64,000 nucleotides of DNA, taken from Eucommia ulmoides. Lineage: Eukaryota > Streptophyta > Magnoliopsida > Garryales > Eucommiaceae. The notes beneath the pieces were generated by a model that ran no database searches, was not told where the DNA came from, and saw nothing but the letters and a program-made list of their open reading frames with translations. The position numbers were made by a program, and so were the translations under genes. The DNA is taken from assembly GCA_016647705.1 (NCBI GenBank), contig CM028328.1, positions 8,407,614 to 8,471,613 on the forward strand, given 5' to 3'. Positions 3,281-49,394 of this stretch are shown here, in pieces (the stretch's first letter is position 1; each line of letters opens with the position of its first letter).

Positions 3281-3289
3281 GATTATGTA

Positions 3290-5180: not shown

Positions 5181-5249
5181 GTCACCAAACTCTGAAAAAC
5201 AAATAAAAAAAAATTACATTCCTATAGTTAAATTATGAAGTATATAACT

Positions 5250-6010
5250 CCCCGATCTCCAACGGTTCTGAATGATTCATTATAATCGGGGAGAGGGACA
5301 ACGGTCGGTCGAAGCCTCACGAAACGCTCCCAGACCCAACACTTCAACAAAAATAGGCAATCGACTATGTTCTGCATCATGCCCTTCAATGCCTTACATA
5401 GCTCTCAGTAGAGGACCGCTAGTGTCGTACTACCCCAACTATACTTAATGAGAGATGTCAAGTCACAAAGCAATGGGAAGTAGTCTAACTTCACCGTGCT
5501 CTGCAATTTATTTGGCAGCAACATCATGCCAAACAGAATCAAGCAATACACACATGCATATCAATACATAACCACGTCGTCGGCATCCTCAAGAACTTCG
5601 TCAAAGGATTTTCGTAGCCAATTAAGCTTCAAACCGCCATTACTTATCTTATTCTCTAGCGGTGCCACTCTGAGAAGATCATGGAAAAGTGCCTACCAAC
5701 TAGCTACCAATTGCATGTCCTCAAGGCCGATAATCGTTTTTCCATGCACGGGCAACCCTAACAAGAAGGTCACGTCCTGTAGTGTGATAGTCACCTCCCC
5801 AACGAGTAGATGGAAAGTATGCGTCTCCGGATGTTATCTCTCTTCCAATGTGGTTATAAGGCACCTATCGAACCGCTTTGGCCACAGCCTGAAAGGGCCA
5901 TACAAACCGGCCGATTCTATCAGCTTTATAACTCGACCAGGGGTGTCTTCTCTCCATCCCCCTACATCAACTCCAGGACAGGTGAGCGAACCAGTATCTT
6001 GAAACATTAA
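5250..6010 (-). pseudogene. Plant mobile domain (PMD, aminotransferase-like) pseudogene
   Basis: Minus-strand translation reads 'GLYGPFRLWPKRFDRCLITT' near 5850-5910, then after a stop 'HPETHTFHL', 'GEVTITLQDV' and 'LLGLPVHGKTIIG'. These are the signature strings of the plant mobile domain family (MAIN/MAIL-like, often annotated 'serine/threonine-protein phosphatase 7 long form homolog'). Further down, in other frames, come matches to the family's 'YSWGS' and 'WVWERF..LRP' motifs, ending near 5250. A stop replaces the expected Trp before 'HPETH', and there are at least one frame change and further stops, so it is dead. It lies about 360 bp downstream of, and on the same strand as, a MULE transposase relic, so it is probably transposon cargo rather than a host gene. 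Confidence 0.8.
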
Positions 6011-6369
6011 TGAAGACATGATAAATAACATAAAAAATTTTAAAAATAAAATAAAAAAATAATCTAATAGCTTAAATATTTATCTATCCTATCCAGACCA
6101 ATGCAGACTTGTGCTCAAATTGCGAGTGTAGAACTGAAGGATTTACGGGGTGAGGCTAAAATATAACTAAATTTTTTTCCCCTAGCACTTGTGTCGAATT
6201 TATTAGTACGAAATTAAAATTTAATTACATTTATAAACAAAAAATAACATTCATTATGAATAAATGTCTACAATAAGTGCATGGAATTTGTGATACATAA
6301 AGTTGGCATATGAAACAAATAAAGTAGCACAAACATTCATTACAATAAACCAACAAGATCATTTGGGTG
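6011..6369. other. Spacer between the PMD and transposase pseudogenes
   Basis: AT-rich linker with no coding remnant or terminal repeat that I can recognise. Confidence 0.4.
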
Positions 6370-8622
6370 TATGGGGAGGGTCAGGATGGACACTTCTGCC
6401 TATCATGTCCAATCTGGGAATACAAACTGCACTGATTTGTTATTGTTCTTCGTGACTTATCTATTTTGTTTCGAATGCAAGTGGATTTTGGTCGACCACG
6501 CTGCACAACTCGAAGTCTATTATGATCTGAAATAAGGTTAAAAAAATTAGTCTGTGGCCAGTAGTCTTCATAAATAATCGGCTGAAACGATCACTCTTAC
6601 ACCATCAATTGATTCGTCACTATGTACTCAGATGCAATATAGCGAAACGTATCAATGCTACTATACTCGGTGGCCGCAAGTATATGGGAGCATGGATATC
6701 ACAAAATTTTATAATTCCCACATATGCAATCAACGTTATCCCCTAGTGTGACAGTGTGAACGATAACCAGTAAGAGTCTTTCTAGTTTTGACATGATAGA
6801 TTGCATTTTCTCTAAAAAAAATCATATTTAATTAAATTATGTATGGTAACAATTATATAATATCTAACATAAAAAAAATAAAAAATAAAAGTAAAAAAAA
6901 AAATAGTAATTTATTGATTGAATATTTGAATTTCGTGTGTTTTGGACTTGGTTTCAGATTTCTGTATTTTTTCAACAACGTGTTTAGCGTATAAGTAACT
7001 ATCAGCTGAGTTCTTTAGAGCTTCTTGTCGACCAATATCAAAGTATTTAACCATGATGTATAAAGTAATATTCACAGATGCAGTAATTTAAACATTTCTT
7101 GCACCCTTCAAGCAGTTGTTAAATACCTCAGCGTAATTTGTCATTATCATTCCCCAATACTTACCATCGTCATGTGCCCTGATCCATTTCTCAACTTCAA
7201 TACTCTCCAACCACCTATGCACCCGAATATCTTTCTTTTTTTTTTTATCTCTTCCATGATTACATCATATTTTTTAATTTGTGTCGCAACACCCGCATTC
7301 CAAGCAAGATCTTTGAGTTGTTTTATTATGCTTGTTGAAATTGCTGCAAAGGTGCCATAAACAAAATAGGTGATATCGTACGGGCGCATTCTGTTCATTA
7401 AGCGCCAGGTTGTCAACCGCACTAGTAATGCCTGCGTGTCGGTCGGATATCAATGTCATCTCAGGACAATCTCCGACAATATGGTGCTTAAGCATGTAGA
7501 TGAACCATTGCCAATAGCAATAGTCTTTTTTTCGGTACGATGGTGAAAGCTAAAGGATAGTACTTGTTAGACGGCGTCATTCCAATGGTGATTAAGATAT
7601 TTTCCTCGTATTTACCATACAAGTAGGTCCCGTCAATCGTGAGAACAAGCCGACAATAACGTCATCCATCAACTGAAGGGTTGAATGCCCAAAACACTAT
7701 ATGGAACGTCCTATAGCCAGACATATTAGTCAGAATAGTGCTCTACTCAATAATCGTACCTGGATTGTAGTGCTACAACACGACCATAAACTTCGGCAAC
7801 TTCTGATATGATTCGTCTCAATCTCCGAATAAGGTCTTGATGACTTTAGATCTACCCAACCAAGCTTTTTCAGTAGGAGATAGTGAATCCCTGAGACTCT
7901 TTCACAAAAGCCACAATAACGTCTATCTTTAATTTTGGATTCTCTTCGACTTGTCTAAGTATTAAGTTCGAAATTACACCAGAAGCTAAATTTTTATGAT
8001 CTAAATCCGTATGATTATAGAAATATATGTGATACCCATCGTACTGCATAATCTGAAACATATCGTGGCTCTTTTTCATAATCTCCAGTAACCTCCAACC
8101 ACGTCCATACAGGCATTTAACTAACCAGACCTTCTTGTGCGTTCCTTTCTCCTCCCTCCCCCCCCCCCCCCCCCCCCCACAAAACTCTTTGTTTTTCATG
8201 ACCTGGTAATACTTCACGACATCTTAGACATGTTTTTTGTCCTTAAAGACCATACCGGTACAGAATACGTCCATCGCTGGTGTCCAGAAATTCTTCCGCA
8301 ACTTCGGCTCATATTTCTCCATGTCATCGTCATCGCCCTAGTCCAACTTATTAAAAAATGGAATAACCCTATCCAATTCCAATTGTTGACTCTGACTCCC
8401 TAGCCCACTAGGCCCAACATCTAGATCTTCATTTCCATTCCCATCATTCTCCTCTAGCTCCAACGCGATATCTGCATCTAACTCTTCTTCTGACACACTG
8501 TGACAACTATCGACTGTATTTAACTCACCACCATAATTACTTGTATTGTCTTGCAGTAGACTACTGAGCGAATAATTGTGATGTGGAATAGCAGAACTAG
8601 TGCCATGATCAAGGTCAATCAT
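6370..8622 (-). pseudogene. MULE (Mutator-like) transposase MURA, decayed
   Basis: Read from 8622 downward: an acidic Ser/Glu-rich N-terminus (8338-8622); the MuDR DNA-binding region with 'RGWRLLEIMKKSHDMFQI' and an 'HKNLAS' stretch (7870-8217); the MULE DDE domain with 'LTIDGTYLYGKY' (near 7630) and 'TLISDRHAGI' (near 7450); a SWIM zinc finger, 'CICG...YPCSH', near 6700-6745 with a stop inside; and a C-terminal 'GRPK' segment with an eroded zinc knuckle near 6380-6500. Domain order matches MURA. At least four frame changes and several stops break it. A C-homopolymer at 8159-8178 encodes an artificial Gly run. No clear TIRs bounding this element were found. Confidence 0.85.
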
Positions 8623-8941
8623 ACTATGAGAATGATCTTATTTTAGAATGTAGAGGGTAGGACGGTGTAATTAGACTCAACTATTTAGGGGTACAGCATG
8701 GGAATACTGTGGGTGTAGGGGGTATAATTAGACTAGACTGCATGGAGTTATGACCGACAAATTGTCTGTTAGAGAAGGTAGGAAGGTTCCATTTCACCTA
8801 TGCCGTGACGAAGAAGAAAAAGCTGACACTTAATTCACTGGTAAGAGAGCTAGGTATTGATTTTATCCCATATCAGATGTGAAAGAAATTGGTGGTCAGG
8901 TTATAAATGTGAAAAAAAAAAAAAAAGAATTATCTCATAAG

Positions 8942-9049
8942 CAATATTTTTAAAACCGAACCGGACATCGAACCGGAAAAGTCACGGGACACCGGTTCCA
9001 CCAGTAGGTGAACCGCGATTGAACCGGTGATGTCATAATTATGTCATTA

Positions 9050-9692: not shown

Positions 9693-10045
9693 CTCATAAG
9701 TTAGTTTTTGGGGTTAGAGAGGTCAAAAACCACCCTAAAATAGTATTAGAGTCCACCCTACACTAGTATCAAAACTTAAGTTACAACAACTCTACTCCAA
9801 TATCGACAAAGGAAAAGATTGGTTGAGAGTTAGCCGACCAAATGATCGATGTGTGAGGGAGAGATTATTGAATTTATCTTACATCAAATGTGGAAGAGAC
9901 TGATAGTCAAGTCATAAGTGTGAGGAAAATCCTTATAAGGTAACTTTTGGAGTTAAAAAAAACCTAACCCTACACTAGGCTATATTTAGAGAGAGAGATT
10001 TCTTCCAAATGTTTCGTCATCAATGTCCAAAAAAAAAAAAAAAAA

Positions 10046-10445
10046 GCCTCGCTTCTCCGATTTGGTGACTGATCTAAAGAACTTGGATGTCTCAAATTTT
10101 AGACTGAAGCTTTTACTGTTTCCCGGCCTATAACCCAACTAAGGGGCGGTATCTGCGAGAGTTCGAGGTCAATATCGACAGACATCATCGGGAAAGTACC
10201 CTCGAAAAAGCTTTTCGATCTTGGGTATCACTACATGATGCCTGATTTGTTGATCGAGTAACATGTTTTCACAACCAAAGGCTTCTTCGGCTGTCGCCCT
10301 GTCTCCCTTGCAAATTCGCGACCATGTTCGCATTGTTTTCAGGAAACACCTGGACTATGACGGCACTGGTATAGTGTTGGTCGAGGGCATCCGAAAGAAA
10401 GAGGGCTTGTGTGTCTGTATTAGCAGTCACAGGTTTGTCACCTAA
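10046..10445 (+). pseudogene. Copy A: broken duplicate of exon 1 of the gene at 26089
   Basis: This stretch aligns along its length with 26089-26484. Shared nucleotide words include 'cctcgcttctccga', 'gagttcgaggtcaa' and 'caaattcgcgaccatgttcg'. The start codon of copy B is missing here: a poly-A run (10030-10045) directly precedes the second codon. A GAGTTA to GAGTAA change makes an in-frame stop near 10257-10262, and there are small indels. Homology includes about 100 bp of upstream sequence (8760-8860, matching 22405-22515), so this is a segmental duplicate rather than a retrocopy. No counterparts of exons 2-4 follow. Confidence 0.85.
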
Positions 10446-10480
10446 AATTTGCCTACCATAACCTGGGTTGATTGCGAGGT

Positions 10481-10795
10481 TTGTCTGCTTGCAGCTATGG
10501 GTACTTATTATTGTAACTTTTGCAATCCAAATTATAACAAAAGTATGTAATATTGCAAATGATATTATATCATATTGTAATGAACCTCATTATAAAATTT
10601 GTTCCTTAGACTTCACCTTGTCATTACATGTTGCAATTTTGTCACTTTAAACCGTATGACACTACTTTTCTTTCAAGTCATAAAAATTACAAGTAACAAC
10701 TTATCATAAGCAATTACAATTAACAATTTGAGTTTTACTCAACTATTCAATTTAATATTAAAATTACATTATCTATAATGAATAATAGATAAAAC
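10481..10795 (+). other. AT-rich spacer
   Basis: AT-rich sequence between pseudogene copy A and the outer MULE. I see no gene, repeat terminus or regulatory site. Confidence 0.5.
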
Positions 10796-11135
10796 ATGTT
10801 TTTAGGGTTAATGATTTTTTTAGTCCCTCACAGATGTAATCAGTATTCAATTGGTCCCTCGTATTTGAAAATAGACAATTTGGCCCTTGACATTTCATTT
10901 TTGGTTTCCAATTAGCTCGATTGACAAATCTGTTAGGTCAATTTAATTATCGACGTTAAACTAAGGCTATTTTGGTCATTTCATGTCAAAAATAAGGGTA
11001 ATTTTGTCCTTTCACTCAATAGAGTTTATTTTTAAAATATTTAAAATTTTAGGGTCTTAAATGTAATTTTAAGGCAAAGCTTGAGCCGCCTCCACCATCC
11101 TCCTCTTCAGACAATCTTCATCCTCTTCTTCACTG

Positions 11136-12022
11136 ATGATAAGCAAACTTAACTGCAACAATTCCGGCGATTTGGGTCTCGAGCTTCTCGGGTTCAAATT
11201 GACCGGAGTACAAATACTTAACGATATGGATCTCACCGGTGAACCAAATTTCGACGAGGAGTACGAGGAAGAGCTAGATCCACTACTCCTTCCCACCGCT
11301 ACCACAAATAGGGATGTCAACGGTCCGGATTCGACTCAGTTTCATGCAAAACTAAAACCAAAACCAAAACCGTTTAAGATATGTAAAACCAAAATCAAAA
11401 CCACCGATTTTTTTTTAAACAGTTTTAAAATCGGACCATTTAATTTTAGCCAAAACCAAAACCAAACCACGAAACCGCAAAACCATTTAAGATTTTTAAA
11501 TTTTATAAAAAACCAAAACTAAAACCACAACCGCAAATCACAATTCACTATTAATTCTAAACATTTTCCAAATCAAACTCTTTAAAATAACTAAAAACCA
11601 ATAGCAAAATCAACTACATAAAAACATTCTTCAAAATCATATAGTTTGCGAAACCAACTACATAAAAATAGTCATCAACATAAACTAAAAACTAACTAAA
11701 GTGTAAACTAAAATGGTTAGAAGTGTAAATAAATATATATCGGTTATACGATTTGGCTTACGGTTCGGTTACGTAGTTTAGTTATGTGGTTACTATCCTA
11801 AAACCAAAACCAAACTCAAAATCGCTTCAGTTTCTAAATTTTAAACCAAAACCAAAACCATTTAATCGGTTTCAATTCAGACCATTCGGTTCAGTTTCTC
11901 TCGGTTATCCGTCGGTTCTATTTTCTTTGTCATCGCTAGCCGCAAAGGCTCTCCTCGACGCCGATCCAGTGCCAATCGAGCTCTCACGACCATTTAACAA
12001 CCTTTTTGGAGTAGAACTCTAA
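11136..12022 (+). pseudogene. Captured gene fragment inside the MULE, split by a hAT-like insertion
   Basis: Two open pieces, 11136-11308 and 11947-12022, are relatively GC-rich and coding-like, in contrast to the surrounding TE DNA. They lie in different frames, but removing the hAT-like element plus one TSD copy (638 bp) brings them into one frame of about 82 codons ending at a stop at 12020-12022. The first part has an acidic Asp/Glu cluster near 'DEEYEEELD'. I do not recognise the parent protein. Further GC-rich sequence continues to about 12290 and may be captured UTR, intron or other exon. Confidence 0.55.
11309..11938. mobile_element. hAT-like element with imperfect 8-bp TSD
   Basis: Left end TAGGGATGTCAA and right end (reverse complement) TAGCGATGACAA form short TIRs. 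Flanks are ACCACAAA (11301-11308) and GCCGCAAA (11939-11946), an 8-bp TSD with two transitions. The interior is dominated by AACCAAAACC repeats. Excising element plus one TSD restores an open frame across the junction, which supports the boundaries. Confidence 0.75.
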
Positions 12023-12305
12023 ATCTTCGTCTCCAGTATACCCCACTTCACCATTTCAGTAATTCTGTCGGAAAATTAGGCCACCAAGTGGCGGGAGCGG
12101 GCGGAGCTCCGTCGAATCCATTTTCCTCGGATTCGTTTTGCTTCCACCGCCAGAAGTTCCACGAACATTTTTCGAAACACACCCACCGTCGATGCCGCCA
12201 TTGGAACCAGAGTGCCAAAATAAAGGAACTCAGAGGGCGGCGACGTTGGTAGCGGTGCTGGAGAAGGGCATGACGAAAAAAAAAAAGGGCTAGTTATAGG
12301 GGTAG

Positions 12306-12500
12306 TATTAAACCATATTCAGTTAGTTACAATTAGTTATTTCTGTTAATTAGTTAGATTTTCAGTTATTCATTCTTGTAACTAATTTAGTTAGTTGAGA
12401 TGCTATTCTGATTATCTATAAATAGCACTCTAACCTCTCTTGTAAAGATAATTTTGAGTTCTCAATGAGAAGAGATTTTTTTACCTTCTTTACTTCAATA
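12306..12500 (+). repeat. Copia 5' LTR (195 bp)
   Basis: The boundaries come from the TSD on the left and the primer-binding site on the right. A TATA-like 'ctataaatagc' at about 12416-12426 is the probable promoter, with the transcript expected to start shortly after. Confidence 0.95.
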
Positions 12501-13103
12501 TGGTATCAGATGAAATCCTTCCAATTTTTTTTCCATTTCTTGATTGACGATTGTTGTTCAATGTTGATCTGATCTGTTCATCTTTTCCTCCGCTGTCTTC
12601 TCGATTGAGGATAGATATTCGTGAGGACTGTTCTTGGGGAATACACGGTTGATTTCCAGATCTGCTTCCTTCTATTCCGTTTTCGCTTGCTTCTCTTCAT
12701 CAATCGTACAATCAAATCTGTGATTGAGCTCAGATCTGTACTGTTCCTCCAGGTACATCATCGATCTGATTCTTGTTTGTTATTTTTCGTTGCCTTTTCT
12801 CGGTTTGTCTTCTCGATTTGTTTGCCGACCGATTGCAATTTCTGTGTCGCTGCTCCTCAATCGTTCTTGACGATTGACGATTTGTTTTCTTTCGTCTTCG
12901 ATTATCGCCTATCGACGATTTTTCGCGATTGATTATCCACACAGCCGGATTGTTCTTCGACGTTTCAGCTCTTGATTTCCTTCGGACTTCGATGTTGACG
13001 ATTGATCAGCTCGCCAACCTGAGTCAATCAGAAACGACAGATCGTTTATTGGCATTTGCGATCATCTCTGTTCACAATCGATCTCAAAATCGGTTGATCT
13101 ATC

Positions 13104-15911
13104 ATGACTTCCACGGATTCTTCTGGAGCAGAGAACTTTTCATCAACCACCACAGATGAATACTCGAGTCCTTATTTCCTTCATCATTCTGATAGCACTG
13201 GACTTATATTGGTGTCGCAAGCTCTGACTGGAGATAATTATGCCTCCTGGAGTAGAGCCATGCTAATTGCTTTGTCTGTGAAGAACAAGCTGGGCTTCAT
13301 TAATGGATCCATCCCCAAACCTGAAGGTACTGCTCTTAATCTCCTTACTTCTTGGACGCGGAATAACAATGTTGTCATCTCTTGGATACTTAATTCTGTT
13401 TCCAAAGAGATATCTGCCAGTGTGCTTTATGCTGAATCTGCTCATGAGATTTGGATTGATCTGCAAGAACGATTTCAACAAAAGAATGGCCCTCGGATTT
13501 TTCAATTAAGGCGTGAATTAATGAACTTAGCTCAAGATCAACTTTCTATCAACGTCTATTTTACTAAACTGAAGGCCATCTGGGATCAGTTAAGTAATTT
13601 CAGACCTCAATGCACTTGTGGTCATTGTACTTGTGGTGGGGTAAAAGCTTTAAATTCTCACTACCAGATGGAGTACATCATGTCCTTTCTCATGGGGTTA
13701 CATGATTCATTTTCTCCAGTCCGTAGCCAAATACTACTCATGGATCCCATTCCATCAATCAATAAGGTATTTGGTTTTGTATCTCAAGAGGAACAGCAGC
13801 GACAACTTGAAGTTCACAGTACTACTCGATCTGCTGCAACCAGCAGTATGGCTTTTGCTATTCAGACTGATCGTAACAATAAACGATATACTCGTGGGCC
13901 TCAGCAATTTGGTGGTTCTACTGGTGGTTTTTCTGGTGGTTACAGAGGTCAAAGAAAGGATAAACCATTTTGCACACATTGCCATTTTCATGGTCACACT
14001 ATTGAGCGCTGTTATAAGCTTCATGGCTATCCTCCTGGTTTTAAGGCACGACAAACAGAAAAATTTTCACCAACTCCTACAGTGGCTATTAATCATGTTT
14101 CTAGTCAACCTTCATATAATTCAGAGGCTACGATCGATCCGCAAGCAAATGTTGGGAATTTCTTACAAAATCTCAACAGTGATCAATGTCAACATTTACT
14201 TTCTTTACTTTCAGGTAAGTTGACAGCCAATGCGATGCCCACTAATGAGGAAGTTCCTTCTACTGCTTACACTACAGGTATCTGTTTCTCAGTCTCTTTA
14301 AATCCTATCTTTTCTTCCAATCAATATTGGATAGTCGATTCTGGAGCCACTCGACACATATGTTCCAATGCTGCCAACTTTATCTCTATGAAGTCTATTC
14401 CAAATTCATTTGTCACCTTACCAAACCACACTCGTATACCAGTTAGCTATAGTGGAGATGTTCGGCTTAATTCTTTCCTCGTTCTCAAAGACGTGTTATT
14501 TGTACCACAGTTCAAGCTACATTTGATTTCTGTGGGTGCTCTTACCAACGACTATCATCTTACTGTTAGTTTTTTTTCTAATGGCTTCATGATTCAGGAT
14601 CTTACCAACAAGAAAATGATTGGCAAGGGTGATTTCATTGATGGTCTCTATGTTATGGATACTGGAACTTCACCTACTCCTTCAACAGTGTATGTTAACC
14701 ACTTATCTGCTCATACATGGCACAATCGACTTGGCCATTTGTCATCTCGGCAGTTAGATGGCTTGCAAGCCCGTTTACATTGTGATACTTCGACGTTTAA
14801 AAAGGCTCCTTGTTATGTGTGTCCTTTAGCTAAACAAAGAAGATTATCCTTTGTCTCTAATAATCATTTGTCTCCATCCCCATTTGATTTGATACACTGT
14901 GATATTTGGGGACCTTACCATATCTCATCCTATGCTGGCTATCGGTACTTTGTTACTTTGGTTGATGATTGTACACGGTTCACATGGATATTTTTACTCA
15001 AGCACAAATCTGATGTAAGCAGTGTGATTCCCAGGTTTTTTAATATGGTGGCAACTCAATTCCGTGCTCATATCAAGGTTTTTCGATCTGATAATGCCCG
15101 GGAGTTAGCATTTCCTGATTTTTTTAATGACAAAGGAGTTATTCATCAATTTTCTTGTGTGGACACCCCACAACAAAATTCAGTCGTCGAAAGAAAACAT
15201 CAGCATCTACTCAATGTTGCTCGGGCTTTATTCTTCCAGTCTCGTGTGCCCATCCAATTTTGGACTGAGTGCATTCTTACGGCCACATACATCATCAATC
15301 GTACACCTTCACCCCTGTTACATCAAAAGACTCCTTATGAAGTTCTTCATAACCATGTCGTTGATTACTCTTCTTTTAGAGTTTTTGGATGCCTTGCATT
15401 TGCCTCTACTCTTAAGGCTCATCGTACCAAGTTCCAACCACGATCTCGGCTCTGCATTTTTTTGGGATATCCTCCGGGTATAAAAGGCTACAAACTCTAT
15501 GATATTCAATCTAAACAGGTTTTCATCTCAAGAGATGTAGTTTTTCATGAGAACATCTTTCCATTCCATTCCGTTGTAGCTCCTGATACCCTCGTTGATC
15601 CTTTTCCTGACCTTGTCTTACCTGTTCCTTCTCCTGACATTCCTATTACATATCACGATCCACCTTCATCTATTTTTCCTAATTCTTCACCTGTCCCAGA
15701 ACAGGAAATCTCTGCTATTCCAGACTTAGCTTCTTCTGATGTTCTTCCTGCTCAAAAGTCTTCACGTGTTTCTAAACCTCCTTCCTATCTTCATGATTAT
15801 CATTGCCGTTTATTGAGCATCATAAGTTTCCATCCTCCAATACACCCTATCCTCTATCCAAGTTTTTGTCTTATGATTCCTTATCTCCATCGCACAGGAC
15901 ATTTGTCCTGA
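13104..15911 (+). CDS. Copia polyprotein part 1: gag, protease, integrase
   Basis: The open frame starts about 600 bp after the primer-binding site. A retrotransposon gag (UBN2-type) region is near residues 40-200. A CX2CX4HX4C zinc knuckle, '[14 protein letters not shown]', is at 290-303. The aspartic protease motif DSGAT begins at residue 412. A gag-pre-integrase 'HNRLGHLSS' follows. The integrase has catalytic Asp near residue 600 (HCDIWGP), Asp663 (RSDNA) and Glu696 (VVERK); the last spacing is 32 residues, shorter than the classical 35 but seen in some plant Copia lineages. The true reading moves to another frame near 15795-15810, so the residues after about 'HDYHC' are off-frame tail. 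It would make the particle protein, protease and integrase of one polyprotein. Confidence 0.93.
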
Positions 15912-17483
15912 CAGTTTCTTCTCATTCTGAGCCCCAATATTATCATCAAGCTGTCAAGTTACCACAATGGAGAGCAGCTATGCAAGCTGAATTAGATGCC
16001 ATGGAATCCAACAAAACTTGGTCCATTGTTCCTTTGCCTCAAGGCACACACTCTATTGGTTGTAAATGGATTTACAAGATTAAGTATCATTCTGATGGTA
16101 CTCTGGAGAGACATAAAGCACGTTTAGTTGCTAAGGGGTATACTCAACAAGAAGGTGTTGATTTCACGGAAACTTTCTCACCTGTAGCAAAGTTAGTCAC
16201 TGTCAAAGTCTTACTGGCCCTTGCTACAAGTCAACATTGGCATCTACATCAATTAGATGTTAATAATGCATTTCTTAATGGCGATTTGTTTGAAGATGTA
16301 TACATGGATCTTCCTCTTGGTTATAGTCGAAAGGGGGAGGATTTTCCAACAGGCAATCGACTTGTTTGCAAGCTTCATAAGTCTATATATGGACTTAAAC
16401 AAGCTTCACGACAGTGGAATTCCAAGTTTGCTCATGTTCTTATCCAATTTGGTTTTGTTCAATCCAAAGCCGATTACTCATTGTTCACCAAAGGATCAGG
16501 TTCATCCTTTGTTGCATTACTAGTATATGTTGATGATATCATCATTGCTAGTCCTAATGGTCAAGTTATAGATTCTTTGAAGAAATTTCTTCACAGCCAA
16601 TTCAAACTTAAAGACCTAGGACAACTAAAATACTTCCTTGGTCTTGAAATTGCAAGATCTGTTCATGGCATGGTACTTTCTCAACGCCACTATACGCTTC
16701 AGTTACTGGAAGATACTGGCTACTTAGCCTGTAAACCTACTCAGGTTCCTTTAGATCCCAAAGCCCAATTGAATGGCAGTGATGGTGAATTACTCACTGA
16801 TATTTCTCAGTATCGCAGACTCATTGGTAAATTGCTTTACCTTACCATTACCCGACCTGATATTACCTTTGCTGTGCATAAACTTAGTCAATTTTTGGCT
16901 CATCCTCGAATTCCTCATATGCAAGCTGTTCATCATTTGCTCAGATATCTCAAATCCAATCCTGGTCAAGGATTATTCTTCTCTGCCCATTCTTCTCTTC
17001 AACTCAAGGCTTTTTCAGATGCTGACTGGGGATCATGTTTAGATACAAGAAAATCTGTTACTGGCTTTTGTGTGTTTCTTGGTAATTCTTTAATATCTTG
17101 GAAGGCTAAAAAGCAAACAACTATATCCCGATCTTCAGCTGAAGCGGAATATCGTGCCCTAGCATCTACTACCAGTGAATTAGTGTGGCTTCGGCAATTA
17201 TTACATGATTTTCAGATTGATATCTCAGCTCCAGCTCTTTTGTTTTGTGATAATCAAGCTGCCATACATATCGCTTCAAATCCCATTTTTTCATGAAAGG
17301 ACCAAACACATTGAGCTTGATTGCCATTTTGTTCGGGATAAAGTTACTGACAGAATTATTCGACTTATGCCTATTCGAACTCAACATCAACTTGCAGATA
17401 TTTTTACAAAGGCTTTGCCCTCGGCATTGATGGTACCACTTCTATCCAAGATGGCTATTAAGGATATTCACAGTCCATCTTGA
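15803..17483 (+). CDS. Copia polyprotein part 2: reverse transcriptase and RNase H, frameshifted
   Basis: The second frame (15803-17296) contains Copia reverse transcriptase: '[20 protein letters not shown]', '[12 protein letters not shown]', and the catalytic YVDD at residues 242-245 (nt 16526-16537). RNase H follows with 'SDADWGSC' and '[12 protein letters not shown]'. A one-base excess in a T6 run near 17285 ends this frame, and the C-terminal 60 or so residues ('[16 protein letters not shown]' onward) continue in the original frame to the stop at 17481-17483, which overlaps the polypurine tract. Together with the shift near 15800 these two changes compensate each other in frame. The polyprotein as printed is interrupted twice. 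Confidence 0.92.
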
Positions 17484-17490
17484 GGGGGAG

Positions 17491-17685
17491 TATTAAACCA
17501 TATTCAGTTAGTTACAATTAGTTATTTCTGTTAATTAGTTAGATTTTCAGTTATTCATTCTTGTAACTAATTTAGTTAGTTGAGATGCTATTCTGATTAT
17601 CTATAAATAGCACTCTAACCTCTCTTGTAAAGATAATTTTGAGTTCTCAATGAGAAGAGATTTTTTTACCTTCTTTACTTCAATA
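17491..17685 (+). repeat. Copia 3' LTR (195 bp)
   Basis: No differences from the 5' LTR were seen by eye. It is directly preceded by the polypurine tract and followed by the TSD GGTAG. Confidence 0.95.
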
Positions 17686-17818
17686 GGTAGAAGTGGAAAA
17701 TGAGATTTTGGGAGTAAGGGAGATGGGGATGGGGGTTGCGATTGATGAATTGTGTCTAACGAGAAAAGGGTTGGTGGAGGATACTGCGATTGTAGGCGGC
17801 GGTGGCAGAGGAGGAAAA

Positions 17819-20062
17819 GAGTTCTTTACCCATTTGGCTCCCAAAAGTTACAAATATAAAAAAATTGGTCTCCTTTTAACTTATTTACCAAATTGGGTCT
17901 TCCCGATTTTGTCAAGGCCGATTTCATGCCTTTAATTTATTTATTTTAAGAAACCGGCCTTGTGAAGGCCAATTTTAAAAAGGGGCTACCACCGTGGCAG
18001 CCCCTTCCCCCCTCCATCCCACCCCCCATGATATATATTTATCGTTTTATAATTTGTATATATAGTTATAATTTGTATATATAATTTTTAATTTTAAAAT
18101 ATTAAACAAATTTTAAAATTATAAATATATATAAAAAAAAATGATTAAAATCATACCCCAAACCCCCCTCCACCCCCCACCCCCACAAAAATCCGACCCT
18201 GCCAGGGCCGGATTTGGTTTTGTTCGGGTTACTTAACCCCAAACCAAATGTCATTGTAACAAAATTAGGGGACCAAAAATGTAATTTTTCTATTTATTAG
18301 TTTTTTCCGCTTGTTTGGACATTATTCAACTCATTTTCATCCATTCTTATTATATTATAATTATTATTTTTTTAACAAACTTAAATTTTTTTCATGTAAT
18401 CCATACACTACGATAATTTTTTCAGAAATCCAATTTTATTGTACTATATGATAGCCACTATAATTTTTTCATATACAAAATTACAATAATTTTTATGGCT
18501 TTTAGGAATTTTGAACTTTTTTGACATAATTATCATATTTCACTTAATCCCCCCCCCCCCCCCCCAAAACCAAATCCTGCCATGCGGGATGGTTTCAATC
18601 AATTTTTTTTATACGCCAAAAAAATTACTATAATTTTTGCATATAAAAAATTATGGTGATTATTATATAGTACAATAATTTTAGATTTCTGAAAAAATTA
18701 TTGTAATATATAGACTACATGAAAAAAATTAAGTTTGTTAAAAATAACAATAATTATTATAATATAATAAAAATTGGTTGAATAATGTCCAAACAAGTGT
18801 AAAAAACAAATAAATAGAAAAATTACATTTTTAGTCCCCTAGTTTTGATACAATGACATTTGGTTTGGGGGTTAAGTGAAATTATAATTTCATTTAAGCC
18901 CCACCCCACCCCCATTTATAATTTCACTTAAACCCCACTCCACTTCCTCAAAACAGAATCCAGCCCTGCTAGAGCCGGATTCGTCTTGGTTTGGGGGTTA
19001 AGTGGAATTATATAATTTTACTTAACCCTCCAAACCAAAAGTCATTGTATCAAAACTAGGGGACCAAAAATGTAATTTTTTATTTATTTTTTTTGTTTTT
19101 TCTACTTGTTTGGGCATTACTCAACCCATTTTTATCCCTTTTTATTATATTATAATTATTATTATTTTTAGCAAACTTAATTTTTTTTCATGTAATCCAT
19201 ACATTACAATAATTTTTTCAGAAATCCAAATTTATTATATTATATAATAATCACTATAATTTTTTCATATAAAAAATTACAGTAACTTTTATGGTGTATA
19301 AAAAACATTGATTGAAATCATACCGCTGGGCAGGATTTGGTTTTGGGGGAGTCAAGTGAAATCTTATAATTATGTCAAAAAAGTTCAAAATTCCTAAACA
19401 TCATAAAAGTTATTGTAATTTTTTAAATGAAAAAATTATAGTGACTATCATATAGTACAATAAATTTGGATTTCTGAAAAAATTATTGTAGTGCATGAAC
19501 TACATGAAAAAAAAATTAAGTTTGTTAAAATAATAATAATTATTATTATAATAATATAATAAAAAGAGATAAAAATGGGTTGAGTAATGTCTAAACAAGT
19601 GGGAAAAACAAATAAATAGAAAAATTACATTTTTTGTCCCCTAGTTTTGATAAAATGACATCTGGTTTGGGGGTTAAGTGAAATTATATAATTTCACTTA
19701 ACCCCCAAACAAAACCAAATCCGGCCCTGGCAGGGCAGGATTTGGGTTTTGGGGGGAGGGAGGGGTTGCGGTATGAATTGAATCAATTTTTTTTTTTTAT
19801 ATATATATATATATTTATAATTTTAAAATTTGTTTAATATTTTAAAATTAATAATTATATATACAAATTAATTAATTATATATACAAATTATAATTCCTC
19901 TTTTTAGAAACCGGCCTTCACAAGGCCGATTTTCTAAAAAAAAAATTAAAAGCATGAAACCGGCCCTGCCAAAGTCGGGAAGACCCAATTTGGTAAATAA
20001 GTTAAAAGATGACTCATTTTTTTATTTTTGTAACTTTTAGGACCCAAAATGGTAAAGAACTC
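17819..20062. mobile_element. Foldback MULE-like element with 10-bp TSD
   Basis: A perfect 10-bp TSD, AGGAGGAAAA, lies at 17809-17818 and 20063-20072. Ends are GAGTTCTTTACC and, reverse complemented, GAGTTCTTTACC, continuing as inverted repeats through 'acttatttaccaaattgggt'. The two arms carry 'aaaccggccttgtgaaggcc' and its inverse. No coding sequence is present. The same end sequence and the same 'ggggctaccacc.tggcagcccc' block occur in the element at 22522-25996, so this is a local family. Confidence 0.88.
18190..19745. repeat. Four alternating inverted arms inside the foldback element
   Basis: A unit containing 'ttaggggaccaaaaatgtaa' occurs in plus orientation near 18265 and 19055 and in minus orientation near 18820 and 19630. 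The arrangement is plus, minus, plus, minus, with each plus/minus pair a palindrome of about 750-800 bp. GC-rich motifs of the CCGGCCCTGCCAGGGC type mark the pair edges near 18195, 18960 and 19725. No gene is seen in it. Confidence 0.8.
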
Positions 20063-20096
20063 AGGAGGAAAAGATGGAGGGAGGTGGACATTGCAG

Positions 20097-20948
20097 TAGG
20101 GGTCGGCAATGGGCCGGCCCAAAAAACTTGAAGCCCAACTGGGCTCGGGCCCAGCGGGCTTTGACTGGTCAACGGGCAATGCTAGGCCGGGCCGGGCATG
20201 AATTGAAGAAATCCGAGCCCATCCAATAGGCCCACACATTTCGGATCTACGAGCTTCGGGCTCGGGCTTGAATGGGCTCAGCCTTGAAGCCAGAATTTTG
20301 AGGGATTTTTTTTTTCCTTTTAATTTTAGATTTCAATTTTCAAAATTGTTAAAATAATTTTTTTTTATACAATGGTTGAAGAGGAGAGAGATTGAAACAC
20401 TAGACCTATCACTAGAAAGACAATTTTTTGTAACCATTTTGCTACAAACCTTGGTTATGAATAAATATCTAATGGAAAGACCTAATAATAATGTTCAATT
20501 GTTAAAATAAGTAAGTTTTAAAACATTTGTCAACTTTATTTAATTTTTTAACTTTATTAAAACTTATTTATAATTTAAAAAAATAAAATAGATGTTTTAT
20601 TCAAAATTTCAAATTTAACAATAAAGAAATTAATAATTGAATAGTGATATTTTTATTAATAGTAAAACAATTATATCACTAAATTGAATAGTAAATGTTG
20701 GTAAGTAAATTTTTATTAATAGTAAAACAGTTACATTACTATATTAAATAGTAAATATTTGTAAACAAATACATCATTATAAAATATATACATCCCAATT
20801 AGGTTGACACATATACACTTGACAATTATTTGCACTGCTATCAACCCAAAATAATATACATTAATGTGTGTTCAATTCCCTTTCCCTTCAATCATTTGTA
20901 AAAAAAAAAAATATTTTAACTATTTTGAAATCAAACAATTCAAATATA

Positions 20949-21008
<60 letters not shown>

Positions 21009-21250
21009 TTATTTATTTATTTATTTAGTTACGGGCCTTGAAAGTCGGGCTTCGGGCTCGGGCCTCGGGTAGCCCGATTTTTTAGCTTCAGGTTTGGGCT
21101 TCGAGCCAGTTTCTATAAAATATTCAAAACCCAAGCCCAACCAAAAGTCCTATGGGCTCGGGCTCTGGCGGCCCTATTCCGGACTCAGTTCGAGCCAAGC
21201 CCAGCGGGTTTCGAGTAGCCCACCAACTTCGGGCTTTTTGGAGAGGCCTA
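20097..21250. mobile_element. hAT-like element rich in GGGCC/GGGCTC words, 8-bp TSD
   Basis: The TSD is CATTGCAG (20089-20096) and CATTGCGG (21251-21258), 7 of 8 identical. Left end TAGGGGTCGGCAATGGGCC and right end (reverse complement) TAGGCCTCTCCAAAAAGCCC are followed by inverted GGGCTCGGGC/GCCCGAGCCC-type subterminal repeats, typical of a common plant hAT MITE class. The interior is AT-rich with a long TA microsatellite at 20948-21003. No transposase. Confidence 0.85.
20948..21024. repeat. (TA)n microsatellite with an ATTT tail
   Basis: Long TA repeat with one TTTA interruption, then ATTT repeats to about 21025. Confidence 0.9.
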
Positions 21251-21552
21251 CATTGCGGTCCTGTGGAGGTGAGAGAGAGAGAGAGAGAGAGAGAGGAGTA
21301 ATGGTGGATTAGATGGGTGGGAAAAAGAAAAAAAAATATATTTTGACCCCTAAACTTTAGATGATTTTTCAAATTAACCCCATGAACTAGAAATGACCAA
21401 AATAGCTTTAGTTTAATGTTGACCGTTAAATTGACTTAACAGATTTTTCAATCGGGCCAGTTGGAAACCGAAAATGAAATGTCAAGGGTCAATTGAACAC
21501 CAGCCACATTTGTGAGAGACCAAAAAAAAAAAATCATTGACCCATGTTTTTA

Positions 21553-22404: not shown

Positions 22405-22515
22405 GTTCTTTTCACAAGATAGGTTGAGAGAAGGCAAGATGCCAAGATGGCTCCATTTCACCTACGCCGTGGGGAAGAAGAAAAAGGCGATACTCAACTG
22501 ACAGCTGGTAAGAGA
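22405..22515 (+). other. Upstream segment of duplicated unit B
   Basis: It matches 8760-8860 ('tccatttcacctacgccgtg' here against 'tccatttcacctatgccgtg' there, both followed by a purine-rich stretch and 'ctggtaagagagcta'). It was once about 100 bp upstream of the start of the 26089 gene and is now separated from it by a 3.5-kb insertion. Confidence 0.8.
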
Positions 22516-22853
22516 GCTAAGGAGCTCTTTACATTTGGTTCCCACAAAATTTAAAATTATCAACCTGAATCTCCTTTAAACTTATTTACATTTTTTGTCT
22601 TTCCAGTCTTTCAACGGTCGGTATCTAATGATTTTTTTTTAAAAAAAAAAAAAAACTCGGCCCTCACAAGGCCGGTTTGTCATGGGGGCTACCACCATGG
22701 CAGCCCCGTCCCCCAATCACCCCCACTCTCCTCCAATTATATATATTTATAATTTTAAATATAATTTGTATATATAATTAATTTGTATATATAACTAATT
22801 AATCTGTATATATATTTTTTAATTTTAAAATATTAAATTAATTTTAAAATTAA

Positions 22854-22884
<31 letters not shown>

Positions 22885-23044
22885 AATCAAACCTCCCACA
22901 CCCATGCCCCCAACCCCCCCCCCCCCCCCCCAAAAAAATAAAAATAAAAAATAAATAAATAAAACTGAATCCTATAGCATGGCGGGATTCGGTTTTTGGT
23001 TTATTCCACTTAACCCGTGAAGTTAACCCCAACCTCCCAAAAAA

Positions 23045-23565
23045 TTAATTTTTTAATGTTTTCAGCAACTTTAGGTGGTCTATCGGTATTTTAAATAAAT
23101 CTAATTTTTTTGCACAAATTACGTTCAAAACACAACATAATACTTTTTACAATACTAAAAACGGACAAATGAATGATTTTTAAAAAATCGTCAAGTTGGC
23201 CAAATGAGCTGTTTTGATGACGGCATAATTTATTCGGTAATTTGGAGTTAACAAAAGATAATTTATCCGTAATAGAAATGAAACCAATTTTTTTTGTATA
23301 TAAATTACATTCATAACACTATATAATAAAATTGAAAACACTAAAAACGGACTAATGAATAATTTTTAAATAATCGTCAAAATTGGTCGAATGAGTTATT
23401 TTTTCGGAAACTTTAAATTTGCAAAATATGATCTATCCGTAACAGAAATGAACACAATTTTTTTTGTATACAACCTATGTTCATAATACTTTATAATAAA
23501 ACTGAGAATACTGAAAACAAATTAATGAATAATTTTTAAATAATCGATGAAGATTACAAATTTAG
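23045..23565. repeat. About 180-bp tandem repeat array (three copies)
   Basis: Units share 'aatgaataatttttaaataatcg', 'caattttttttgtata' and an 'atccgtaa.agaaatgaa' block, with starts near 23090, 23270 and 23450. The same unit occurs in both arms of the element at 37046-40966, linking the two as relatives. Confidence 0.75.
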
Positions 23566-23786
23566 GCACCTAACACTTCAAATCCAAACTTAAAGGTGAA
23601 AACGGACGTTATTTGAAAAAATACTCGACCAAACTGTCTACGGGTCACGCCTAAATCTCAAAAAAAATACCCGAAATAAAAGGGAAAAAAAAACATCTCA
23701 AACAGACCACCGAACGCAAAGTTATGCACATCCAAACTTTTTTTACTTTCTCACATGTAATTTTCTTCTCTCTTGTTATTTTACTC

Positions 23787-25108
23787 TGTAACGGCCCGAT
23801 TTTCCAAGGCCGCCACACGGTTTCTCCCCTTGGAGAATCAATACCAATTACCCAACAACCAATACTCCACTTTAATAAAATCTGATGAGTTTTTATAATG
23901 CGACGGCAAAATTTATAATTATCAAATTTATAATTTAAAACTGAATATTCAATATTACTAAATTGAGAAATTTTACCAATTACGGTGATAATTTTAGTTA
24001 TCAATTTATCCGATTACAATGGTAAATGCAATTGTTACAGATTCAATAAAAATATTAGAAGCAGAATTTAGAATGATCCGGGAACAGAGGAGATACAAAA
24101 GAATTTCTAACCATGAGTAATATTAGAATTTAGGATAATATAATTAGAATTTAGAATCAATTTTATTTTTCAACAGAGAGTAGTGAACACGAACAGACTC
24201 AAGGAACGGAAACATTAACCCAATGGGGCCTCAAATTACAATTACTCTAGTTTTTGTTCTCATAAATTCATTCATATCTTCAAACAATTATAATTTATCG
24301 AACAGTCAATAATTTGTTGATTTCATCGATTCGATTTTTACAATGATAAATAATAAATATAATTATTATAATTTTAAATAAAAATTCAACTAAGTTTCTG
24401 GTGGCCGTTTCTCTCTCGCCGGCCCTGCAATCAAACTGTGGGGTTGTAAGCTAAAGTTCAGTACAATTTCAATCCCTCTAATATGTGCATTTAATTAACG
24501 CGACAAATAAAACACATTGACATGATTTTCACATAATTTTCACATAATCATAATTATTTCATACGAACTAACAACGATAAATTCACCAACAGTAATAATA
24601 TACATCTCACAATGAAGAAATTAAAAGAGTTAGAAATTTTACCTAAAATCTGAAGTCGGAATCTGAACCGAAATCCTAATCAGAATATTAATCGCATTCA
24701 AAAAAAACTCTTTGCGATAAACATATATAACATATAATATAATTTAATATATGTATATATAAGAGGTAAAGTCACCGTCCCATTAACATTATTATTATTT
24801 AATTATTATTATTATATTTATATGTAAACACGTAAGTGGTGACTGATGAGTTAAAATCATAAATCATCACTTATTTATATTAATAACCTTCTTGAAAAAA
24901 AAATTATATAAATTATACTTTAAAATTTTTAAAAGTAAATTTTAAATAACATAATAGTCCAAAACTTCTAAAATCAATTCAAAAATATCATTTAATCTCC
25001 GAAAATTATTAAATATTATTTATACTATAAATTTACAAAACAGTCCCAAAAATATTAAACTTTTATATAAAATAATATTTTCAAGAATCTAAATTTTCGG
25101 GTACTACA
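23787..25108 (+). mobile_element. Solo LTR (Ty3/Gypsy-type), 1322 bp, TSD TACTC
   Basis: A perfect 5-bp TSD, TACTC, lies at 23782-23786 and 25109-25113. The ends are TGTAACGGCCCG and GGGTACTACA. No internal coding region or second LTR is present, so it is the product of LTR-LTR recombination. It is inserted in the 22522-25996 element. An inverted relative is at 1-852. Confidence 0.92.
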
Positions 25109-26088
25109 TACTCTATTTTAAAATCATATTTATTTTGGTAAATAACTCAAAAAAATTAATTATTATTCATAAAATAAATATTAAAAAAAATTAAAAAAAA
25201 AATTAAAAAGGGGGTTCCGGCCCTATCAGGGCCAGAATCAAGTTTGATTCCGGAACCCCTTTCCCCCCACCCCACCCCCCTCTCCCGATCTCATCATCTC
25301 CCCCATCCCCGTGTTTTTTTATTTGTTTTATTTATATTTAGAAATTAAAAATTATATATACAAATTAGACAAATAGTGAGATTTTTCCAAACGAATTTCT
25401 TCAAAAGCAATGCAAAAAAAAATTACGCCGTCATCTAATTATACAAAAAAAAAAAAAAAAGGTTGTAAACTGTATTATGTAGTATTTTGAACTTATTTTC
25501 TCGATTTATTTATAAACTGCATCGGTTAGGTATTTGTGATAAATTAAACTCGTTATATATGTGCGCGCGCAGAGTTGGATTTATTTTACTTTTTCTTATC
25601 TATTTTATTTATTTTGAAAATATTTTTTTTTTTTTACAAAATTATAATTTTTTTCTTTCATTCATTTAAATTTGTTATTTTTTTCTTTTTTTTTTAACGA
25701 GTTAATTTGTATATATAATTTTTAATTTAAAAATATTAAATAACTTTTAAAATTATAAATATATATATATATATTGATGGGGGTGGGTTGGATGGGGGGT
25801 AATTGGGGGCCGGGGGGCAGGGAGGGGGCTGCCATGGTGGCAGCCCCGATGACAAATCGGCCCTGTGAGGGCCGTTTTTTTTTTTTTTTTTTTTAAAACA
25901 AATCCATTAGAAACCGGTCATTGAAAGGCCGAAGAAACCCAAAAATGTAAATAAGTTTAAAGGGGAGAGCGGTTGGTAATTTCAAATTTTTTGACCAGCG
26001 CTAAGCCATAAATAAAGAGATTTCTTCCAAATGTTTCCTCATCAATATTATCCTCCATTTAGCTCAAAAATAAAAAAGGAGAAGAAAA

Positions 26089-27997
26089 ATGCCTCGCTTC
26101 TCCGAGGTGGTGACAGATCTGAAGAACTCGGATCTCCCAAATTTGAGACTGAAGCTTTACTGTTTCCCGGCGGATAACCCGAACAATGGGCGGTATCTGA
26201 GAGAGTTCGAGGTCAACATCGACGGACATCACCGGGAAGTATCCTCAAAAAAGTTTTTCGATCTTGGGTATTACTACATGATGTCTGATTTGTTGATCGA
26301 GTTACGTGTTTTCACCACCAGAGGATTCTCCGGCGTCGCCCTGTCCCCCTTGCAAATTCGCGACCATGTTCGCATCGTTTTTTGGAAACACCCGGACTAT
26401 GACAGCACCGGTAAAGTGTTGATCGAGGGCATCCGAAGAGAGGGCTTGCGTGTTTGTCTTAGTGGTCGCAGGTTTGTCACCTAAAATTTGCCTACCATAA
26501 CTAGGGTCGAGTACGAGGTTTCCCCTTTTTTTCCCTTTTTTTTTTTTTCCTTTTTAATTCGCTTGTTGTCTGGTTTCATTTTGAAGGGGATTTGGTCGGA
26601 TTTTGGGTAGGAAAGCCCTCTATGATACCCTCAAGACATGGTCTATAGTAGGATATTTGCCTAAGGTAATAAAAATATCAAAAAATGTTGTTCTTTTTTA
26701 AATATTTCATATATCCGTAAACATGATTTCCGACCATCTATCTTTTTACAAGTACTACTGTACTTGTTGTTAAACGAGGGGTAAGACTGACGTTTGTCAA
26801 AGGATGTCCAATAAAGCTTGCAAGCAGAAAGCTGTAATGATCATCGATAATTTCCCTTGATATGTACTTGTCCTTTTTTTTTTTCCCCTCATTTTTCTTA
26901 GCTTGTGTGTTTCTGAACTGTGATGGTATATTGTTTCATTTTCAGGGTCCTTCTTCTTCCCACACTTTGATTGGGTCGGAACAGCAGAGTGAAGAACAAA
27001 ATCCTCCGTCCGAGGTATACCATTTGCTCATTTTCATATATAATTAAACCGTATGGATCAACCAAAAGATGTTAGTCCGGTTCGCAAGAAAATATATTCT
27101 TTTCCTTGTCAACTAGGATTTGACTATCTAGAGAACACTCTAAAAATTAAATCTTGAATTTAACCTTGAACGCTCCAGACCAATGTGGAGTGTGAGCCCT
27201 TAAGATTTTCTAGAGAGGTCATTAGTGTGCGCGTAAGCTAAAAAAAAACTATGAATCTGGTCCAAAAACTAATAGTTTAGTGGGATGCATGGCGGTGTGA
27301 CAATGGATGATTTCCTTTTTTGAAATAGCCCCTTTTCTCCATGGAGGAAAAATCAGATTATTTATTTGGGGGAGCTGGGTCTCAGAGGCATATTCTTAAG
27401 AATAGGGAATTGCTATTCACATTAATAGCATTTAACCACCAGTAAATTTGTTTCTTTGGCAGTATTATTAATTTCTAGGATTTTTGGTAAACAATCTACA
27501 AAAATACAATCCACGCACTATAGTCATTTTTTCAGAAGTTCAAAATCACTATAGTACATAAAAATTACTGTAATTTTGCCATGCAAAAATTTACAACAAT
27601 TTTATTGCGTAAAGTGATTTTGGATTTTTGACAGCAACTTTGAATTTCTGTAAAAAATTACCGTAGTGTGTGAATTTCATGTGCTAAATTTTTAATTTCA
27701 TGGACTGAATATAAATATTCGTGGATTTTTTCTTAACTTGCATAGGATCCTTCTTCCTCCAATTTGGCGGGGTCTGGTCAACCGATTCAGGTACAAACTC
27801 ATCTGCCCGACGTTTCATCGCCATAATCTATCCTTTTTTTTTTTTTGGTGTGTGTTTTTAACGGTTTTAAATCCTTCTGTTTTATTAAAATTCTGCAGAT
27901 TGCTAAGCCTAAATGGCTGCAGCTTCCAATTAGGCTCTTGAAGACGAAGTCCTGCAGAGTTTATAATCGTGGGAACGATGTTGACCTTGCTTTCTAA
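26089..27997 (+). CDS. Hypothetical protein, candidate four-exon gene (copy B)
   Basis: Exon 1 opens with ATG at 26089 and encodes about 128 residues, basic and hydrophobic mixed, beginning 'MPRFSEVVTDLKNSDLPNL'. No known domain is recognised. Downstream exons are inferred from splice signals and matching phase 0: exon 2 at 26946-27014 (23 codons, Ser/Gln/Glu-rich), exon 3 at 27746-27790 (15 codons), exon 4 at 27899-27997 (33 codons with stop TAA, ending 'NDVDLAF'). Acceptors are TTTTCAG, TTGCATAG and TTCTGCAG; donors after exons 2 and 3 are GTATAC and GTACAA. The weak point is the exon 1 donor: the good site at 26471/26472 (CAG|GTTTGT) is phase 2 and would run into a stop in exon 2, while the phase-0 site at 26475/26476 is poor. 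Without splicing, exon 1 ends at 26484 (131 codons). It may be a gene, a missed extra exon, or an early pseudogene. A broken duplicate is at 10046-10445. Confidence 0.6.
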
Positions 27998-29790: not shown

Positions 29791-29793
29791 TTA

Positions 29794-30948: not shown

Positions 30949-30951
30949 TTA

Positions 30952-33455: not shown

Positions 33456-33486
<31 letters not shown>

Positions 33487-49191: not shown

Positions 49192-49394
49192 GGGTTAATT
49201 ACACTTTACCCCCTGTGGTTTGACCGATTTGCACTTTACCCCCTATAATTTGAAAATCACCACTAACCCCCCTTGTGGTTAGATTTTCAAACCACTTACC
49301 CCCTGATATAAGGGGGGTAAGTGCACCTAAATCAAGACCACAGGGGGTAAGTGCAAATGGGCCAAACCACATGGGGATAAAGTGTAATTAACCC
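49192..49394. mobile_element. MULE-like MITE, 203 bp, 9-bp TSD TTAATTAAA
   Basis: A perfect 9-bp TSD lies at 49183-49191 and 49395-49403. Almost the whole element is two inverted arms beginning GGGTTAATTACACTTTA, with 'ccccctgtggtttg' and 'gatttgcacttacc'-like blocks. The ends match those of the 43884-44856 element. Confidence 0.92.

Follow-up and report, generated by a model that had tools for sequence, protein, structure and literature searches.

An outer element and its insertions

Positions 10805 to 21543 of a 64,000-nucleotide stretch of the Eucommia ulmoides genome (contig CM028328.1, C4:8407614-8471613; hereafter the window, whose own numbering is used throughout) are crowded with transposon ends and short direct duplications, and the locus raises the question of whether these belong to a single element broken up by later insertions and, if so, what that element carried. 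The preliminary description, read by eye from the raw sequence, had proposed an outer Mutator-like element (MULE) holding two hAT-like elements, a Copia element and a foldback MULE. Searches of the same genome (946.7 Mb in 391 contigs; C and L numbers are our handles for contigs and loci), taken with the end points, duplications, contiguous sister copies, parent gene, shared breakpoints and decay described below, lead us to an account that we hold with high confidence: the outer element is a Pack-MULE that captured part of a formin gene and was amplified, and the window copy has decayed and been interrupted four times.

The features of the outer element are:

10805-21543, plus strand: outer non-autonomous Pack-MULE, recognized by inverted ends, duplication and sister copies
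10796-10804: left target-site duplication, ATGTTTTTA, identical to the right copy at 9/9 positions
21544-21552: right target-site duplication, ATGTTTTTA
10805-11060, plus strand: left terminal inverted repeat, inner limit approximate
21340-21543, minus strand: right terminal inverted repeat, inner limit approximate
10805-11308, 11947-12305, 17691-17818, 20073-20096 and 21259-21543: the element's own sequence with one duplication copy per insert, 1,300 bp

The outer limits are exactly those first proposed, with ATGTTTTTA flanking both sides. The inverted ends read GGGTTAATGA and GGGTCAATGA, and the terminal inverted repeats (TIRs) are around 200-250 bp long. The chance of each duplication was calculated as the fraction of randomly paired window sites with an equally good match, with the ends either fixed or free to move by 2 bp; for the outer element it is 3.5e-5 with fixed ends and 0.0004 with free ends. 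A scan of the window for GGGT(T/C)AAT(G/T)A ends no more than 15 kb apart, with 8-11-bp flanks carrying at most one mismatch, yielded only this pair and a second at 49192-49394.

Alternatively, the inverted repeats might be the ends of two different MULE copies in facing orientation, with 9-bp flanks that agree only by chance. It would fit such an arrangement that the repeats are only 87% identical over a 103-bp core, with gaps between them, and that the family is abundant: among the matches listed for the left TIR (10806-10990) in the genome there are at least 41, itself counted, with 40 of 975 first-look candidates scored. The low chance of a 9/9 match at these ends, together with two sister copies (L009 and L010) in which both ends enclose the same interior within approximately 1.3-1.4 kb, makes this exceedingly improbable, and we treat 10805-21543 as one element. 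No empty site of this element was found within the window, where a paralogous pair (9994-10482 and 26016-26521) stops short of the insertion point, and a scan of viral contigs for the TIR pattern gave no matches.

The four insertions and their duplications are, from left to right:

11309-11938, plus strand: hAT-like non-autonomous element 1 (hAT1), 630 bp, ends TAGGGATGTCAA and TAGCGATGACAA
11301-11308: left 8-bp duplication of hAT1, ACCACAAA, apparently the decayed copy
11939-11946: right 8-bp duplication of hAT1, GCCGCAAA, apparently the older form, 6/8 against the left
12306-17685, plus strand: Ty1/copia-type long terminal repeat (LTR) retrotransposon, 5,380 bp, LTR ends TATT...AATA
12301-12305: left 5-bp duplication of the Copia element, GGTAG, 5/5
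17686-17690: right 5-bp duplication of the Copia element, GGTAG, 5/5
12306-12500, plus strand: Copia 5' LTR, 195 bp
17491-17685, plus strand: Copia 3' LTR, identical to the 5' LTR across 195 bp
13098-15911, plus strand: Copia gag-integrase frame, Pfam gag, gag_pre-integrs and rve
15797-17296, plus strand: Copia reverse transcriptase frame, RVT_2
17819-20062: foldback MULE, 2,244 bp, arms 17819-18903 and 18992-20062
17809-17818: left 10-bp duplication of the foldback MULE, AGGAGGAAAA, 10/10
20063-20072: right 10-bp duplication of the foldback MULE, AGGAGGAAAA, 10/10
20097-21250, plus strand: hAT-like non-autonomous element 2 (hAT2), 1,154 bp, ends TAGGGGTCGGCAA and TAGGCCTCTCCAA
20089-20096: left 8-bp duplication of hAT2, CATTGCAG
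21251-21258: right 8-bp duplication of hAT2, CATTGCGG, 7/8 against the left

All five elements, under the class names first given to them, can be read directly from their ends and duplications. The duplications had also been called intact, which holds for the perfect ones of the outer element, the Copia element and the foldback MULE and fails for hAT2 (7/8) and hAT1 (6/8). The class names of the hAT-like and foldback elements are putative, taken only from the structure of their ends and duplications.

The order of domains between the Copia LTRs is gag, rve, RVT_2; the same Pfam search gave no model match for a protease or RNase H. The chance of its duplication is 0.002 with fixed ends and 0.034 with free ends. 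The insert is young, because its LTRs show no differences at 195 sites, which by simple arithmetic places their divergence below about 1.5% (95% confidence); so short an LTR is a poor basis for dating. It is not a simple intact copy, since the gag-integrase and reverse transcriptase lie in different reading frames. Most LTR elements have TG..CA ends, which account for 89% in the annelid treated in PMC8220671; the ends seen here instead fit the non-canonical TATA motif that, according to the same paper, is included in the LTR_retriever library.

The foldback MULE consists almost wholly of its two arms, which are approximately 1,085 bp long, identical at 904 of 1005 aligned columns and separated by an 88-bp spacer. 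Its 10-bp duplication is perfect, as had been claimed, and has a chance of 4e-5 (fixed ends) or 0.0004 (free ends). A partial relative lies in the window at 22522-22925 (69% identity), and parts of the element match L003 and L046, which are not formin copies, at 72-83%. Both arms also hold an inverted pair of their own of approximately 270 bp (in the left arm, 18231-18499 with 18877-18615), forming a palindrome within a palindrome.

For hAT2 the chance of the duplication is 0.001 with fixed and 0.017 with free ends; for hAT1 it is 0.009 and 0.11, the weakest of the five. The hAT1 duplication is weak when taken alone, and we accept this insertion together with the sister evidence given below. 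Its inverted ends directly abut its duplication. Counted by eye, the short inverted ends pair at 10 of the first 12 letters in hAT1 and 9 of the first 13 in hAT2. With ends that start with TAG and 8-bp duplications, both are presumably comparable to the nDart-type non-autonomous hATs of rice.

Sister copies across the excision points

Leaving out the four inserts and one duplication copy of each gives a collapsed element of 1,300 bp, where a few kilobases had been anticipated. Two internal pieces were searched against the genome, with match counts that are lower bounds: 11100-11308 has at least 12 matches, and 11947-12300 at least 15 at 13 places. Besides the window and two C5 loci, the internal sequence is found at no fewer than 10 places (three each on C7 and C11, and one each on C10, C17, C15 and C3). 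The preliminary description had proposed a search of the same genome for sister copies joined across the excision points, and such copies exist: eight of the 10 places are contiguous at all four points (L009, L010, L014, L024, L025, L041, L044 and L045), L053 (C15) spans three and begins 7 bp before the fourth, and L042 (C3) spans one. Neither hAT1 nor hAT2 nor the Copia LTR gave a match at E 1e-8 among the 50 other loci compared.

The alignment with the sisters also allows the individual junctions to be inspected. The Copia site is clean to within one or two bases. At the hAT1 site, 15 bp that are present in nine MULE copies and the gene are gone from the window copy. Judged by eye, most sisters are around 40-50 bp longer at the foldback site, where they vary among themselves and L014 is also short, and the window copy has approximately 8 bp extra at the hAT2 site. 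The differences are most simply read as small indels that would have arisen independently of one another, at the foldback and hAT2 sites before the insertions.

At the hAT1 site GCCGCAAA is matched exactly by two of the 10 aligned rows, those of the parent gene and of one sister, and G is present in 8 of the 10 rows at position 4 of the duplication and in 6 of the 10 at position 1. Being identical to these two rows, the right copy seems to be the ancestral form, with the left copy having decayed from G to A at both differing positions.

One formin-bearing sister, L014, is itself split elsewhere in the copy (241-8970) by an LTR element, whose 1.3-kb direct repeats are 89% identical and which is flanked on each side by CAACC.

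The captured gene fragment and its parent

The gene fragment expected inside the collapsed element proved to be the 5' untranslated region (5'UTR) and N-terminal exon of a gene on C5 for a formin, an actin-organizing protein, in antisense orientation:

11135-12233, minus strand: captured formin, residues ~343 down to 184, antisense, split by hAT1
12234-12300, minus strand: captured formin, start of the part for residues ~88 to 3, continuing at 17691-17818
17691-17818, minus strand: captured formin, N-terminal residues, antisense

Across the MULE copies the fragment comprises formin residues ~3-88 and 184-343 together with the 5'UTR, antisense to the plus strand of the window. A tblastn search of the window with the C5 formin exon gave matches at 11144-11293, 11938-12012, 12002-12205 and 12205-12249, and blastn of the collapsed element against L051 gave matches at 331-792 and 790-1000. 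The two C5 loci that hold the internal sequence, L051 and L052, lie 3.25 Mb apart and share a 1.1-kb stretch that is 89% identical; the 9.9 kb around each of them showed nothing that matched the MULE ends.

L051, on the minus strand of C5, carries an FH2 domain (PF02181) in four exon pieces covering profile positions 4-370; three of the pieces exceed the Pfam cut-off, whereas the first falls short of it (32.5 against 34.8 bits, E 6.6e-8). Its N-terminal exon encodes two hydrophobic segments, in windows starting at residues 1-9 and 111-125. The FH2 domain and the two segments, rather than a tree, suggest a formin of class I type.

The gene was identified only through the sister copies and the C5 locus. 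A Pfam search with four peptides of the collapsed element returned one match, below the cut-off (PSK, E 0.15), and searches of PDB sequences with two peptides returned none. Open-frame length was set aside as a sign of captured coding sequence: the longest frame without a stop has 143 codons, a length reached by 107 of 500 shuffles of the core and also in 496 of 1000 trials in which the frames at the junctions were random.

The MULE copies and the parent gene differ by a stretch of approximately 285 bp that codes for the transmembrane segment. It is kept in the gene and gone from every one of the 10 MULE copies that reach across this point (L009, L010, L014, L024, L041, L044, L045 and L053, in which it was measured, plus L025 and the window copy); L042 ends before it. 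In nine copies placed on L051, the left limit of the capture is at 4963 in six and at 4969, 4984 and 5114 in the others. The loss runs from about 5446 to 5732, with limits agreeing within 22 bp, in eight of the nine, which are all that span it, and in the same eight the right limit of the capture is at 6021-6054. Because these limits are common to the copies, there was probably a single capture followed by spread.

The 285-bp difference could also mean that the C5 gene acquired the stretch after the capture. Its length is a multiple of three and it is present in both C5 loci, L052 matching L051 across the stretch; among the loci compared, L052 not being one of them, full-length matches occur only in two overlapping loci of the C5 gene. 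Apart from its N-terminus, however, the exon has a single strongly hydrophobic segment, which this stretch encodes, and class I formins are for the most part transmembrane proteins (PMC11194305). We consider a gain by the gene very unlikely, and a loss from the MULE the better reading.

Decay of the fragment

Compared with L051, the window copy has a Kimura two-parameter distance of 0.147 and 88 changes, of which 29 are G>A and 14 C>T, as would be expected of a methylated element. The changes are even over codon positions 1, 2 and 3 (28, 30, 30), and seven indels have lengths that are not multiples of three. This copy is decayed, and there is no sign that its fragment has been kept as protein.

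This pattern bears on whether the captured piece, prior to its decay, was expressed and under selection, be it as a regulator or as a soluble ectodomain. Such a history could account for the removal of the membrane anchor from every spanning copy while the N-terminus was kept, for the number of copies, and for the excess of third-position changes in L044 (23, 23, 38) and L042 (11, 16, 25), part of which must stem from the parent gene's own branch. Yet the changes are as even in the window copy as just described and nearly so in L009, L024, L025 and L041, and the other ten MULE copies, like that of the window, all have indels not divisible by three (3-7 each), so that 11 of 11 are affected; L052 is free of such indels, and its changes fall more often at third positions (7, 5, 16). 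We therefore give selection on the fragment only a slender chance. We would attach similarly little weight to the suggestion that the family makes antisense transcripts or small RNAs acting on the parent formin, with amplification and nested breaking having tuned the dosage of that gene.

Order of the insertions

The preliminary description had held that stepwise removal would recover the order of events. The four inner elements are placed one beside the next, none lying within another, and the nest is thus only two levels deep; removal consequently places the outer element before each insert and says no more. Side-by-side insertions hold no order among themselves, which is a limit that applies to nests of this kind. 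With its duplication decayed and 15 bp lost next to it, hAT1 looks older, a weak hint, and the mutual order of the four inner elements as a whole depends on weak hints of age.

Origin and spread of the formin Pack-MULE

We propose that a class I formin gene contributed its 5'UTR and N-terminal exon, in antisense orientation and probably in a single capture, to a MULE with GGGTTAATGA ends, and that the approximately 285 bp with the transmembrane segment were lost at or soon after the capture. The resulting Pack-MULE then spread to at least 11 places through transposase presumably supplied from elsewhere. The window copy landed on C4 with a 9-bp duplication and decayed, and it later took four independent, side-by-side inserts: two hAT-like elements, a Copia element and a foldback MULE.

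Several points weigh against this account. Small indels relative to the sisters are present at three of the four junctions, so removal does not restore exact sister sequence. The deep branches in the tree of the copies have very low support, which leaves the single capture to the shared breakpoints, and the formin class is taken from the FH2 domain and the two hydrophobic segments. L009, the best-sized sister, has no target duplication. No transposase of the outer family was identified, where only the open reading frame list of L013 was read and no transposase search was made.

The wider family gives further information on the outer ends. The formin Pack-MULE is present at no fewer than 11 places including the window, besides the two C5 loci, and several copies are without one end. 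Duplications were tested in seven relatives with the same ends, four more having been left out beforehand since one end was missing; four had perfect duplications of at least 9 bp (L010, L012, L013 and L019), one a near-perfect one (L011, 8/8 or 9/10), and two had none, L014 showing only a displaced 7/8 match. Within the window are two uninterrupted elements with the GGGTTAAT start, at 43884-44856 and 49192-49394, which by their structure would support the assignment of the outer element to the MULEs. The outer element itself combines a target-site duplication, long TIRs of a multicopy family, a gene fragment with its parent gene, and multiple copies, as a Pack-MULE should.

The first of these window elements (43884-44856) is MULE-like and 973 bp long, with a 10/10 duplication GATAATATCG; a sister of its host repeat, at 29793-30949, is empty at that point. 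The second (49192-49394) is a 203-bp miniature with ends GGGTTAATTACACTTTA and a 9/9 duplication TTAATTAAA. The outer family also includes a 9.6-kb MULE in L013 (233-9875) with a 9/9 duplication TTATCAAAA; judged by eye, it holds Copia-like frames on its opposite strand.

Pack-MULE families that have been amplified have been described before, as have MULEs with nested insertions (PMC3310237, PMC3903597). In tomato, PM-ZIBP is likewise an amplified Pack-MULE with a host gene fragment, 14 copies and a putative parent gene in the genome (PMC3310237). It carries a fragment of another gene and has tandem TIRs in 13 of 14 copies, whereas the TIRs of the element described here are single, its formin fragment has lost an internal part, and one copy is interrupted four times. 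As here, coding MULEs of maize and rice are targets of LTR and DNA elements: 36% of the maize and 41% of the rice candidates hold insertions, and around two thirds of the dated LTR insertions are under 1 My old (PMC3903597). Those elements were picked for their transposase sequence, and the interrupted ones average two insertions in maize and one in rice, in contrast to the four in a Pack-MULE without transposase. The locus is thus a well-documented example of an ordinary process. As a worked case it is clean: sister copies confirmed a nest that had been recognized by eye in the raw sequence, and the captured gene and its capture breakpoints were identified.

Other repeats in the window

To the right of the nest, 22519-26015 is a probable MULE-like element akin to the foldback arms, in which 22543-22802 pairs with 25993-25702 (74%); its limits show a near-duplicated AGAGCTAAG and AGCGCTAAG by eye, and the right end looks eroded. 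Duplicated-gene pieces surround the nest: the coding-like segment at 9994-10482 and 26016-26521 is 84% identical between its copies, and 8782-8852 and 22446-22519 are 81% identical. An open frame in this segment (26074-26481) has no Pfam match. A second, degenerate Copia-like stretch occupies 30937-34771, judged from open reading frames by eye. An inverted pair at 37110-37822 and 40159-40861 (77%) has 184-bp tandem repeats on both sides, with related repeats at 23079-23557, and 61763-62505 is a tandem array with periods of 316 bp and approximately 82 bp.

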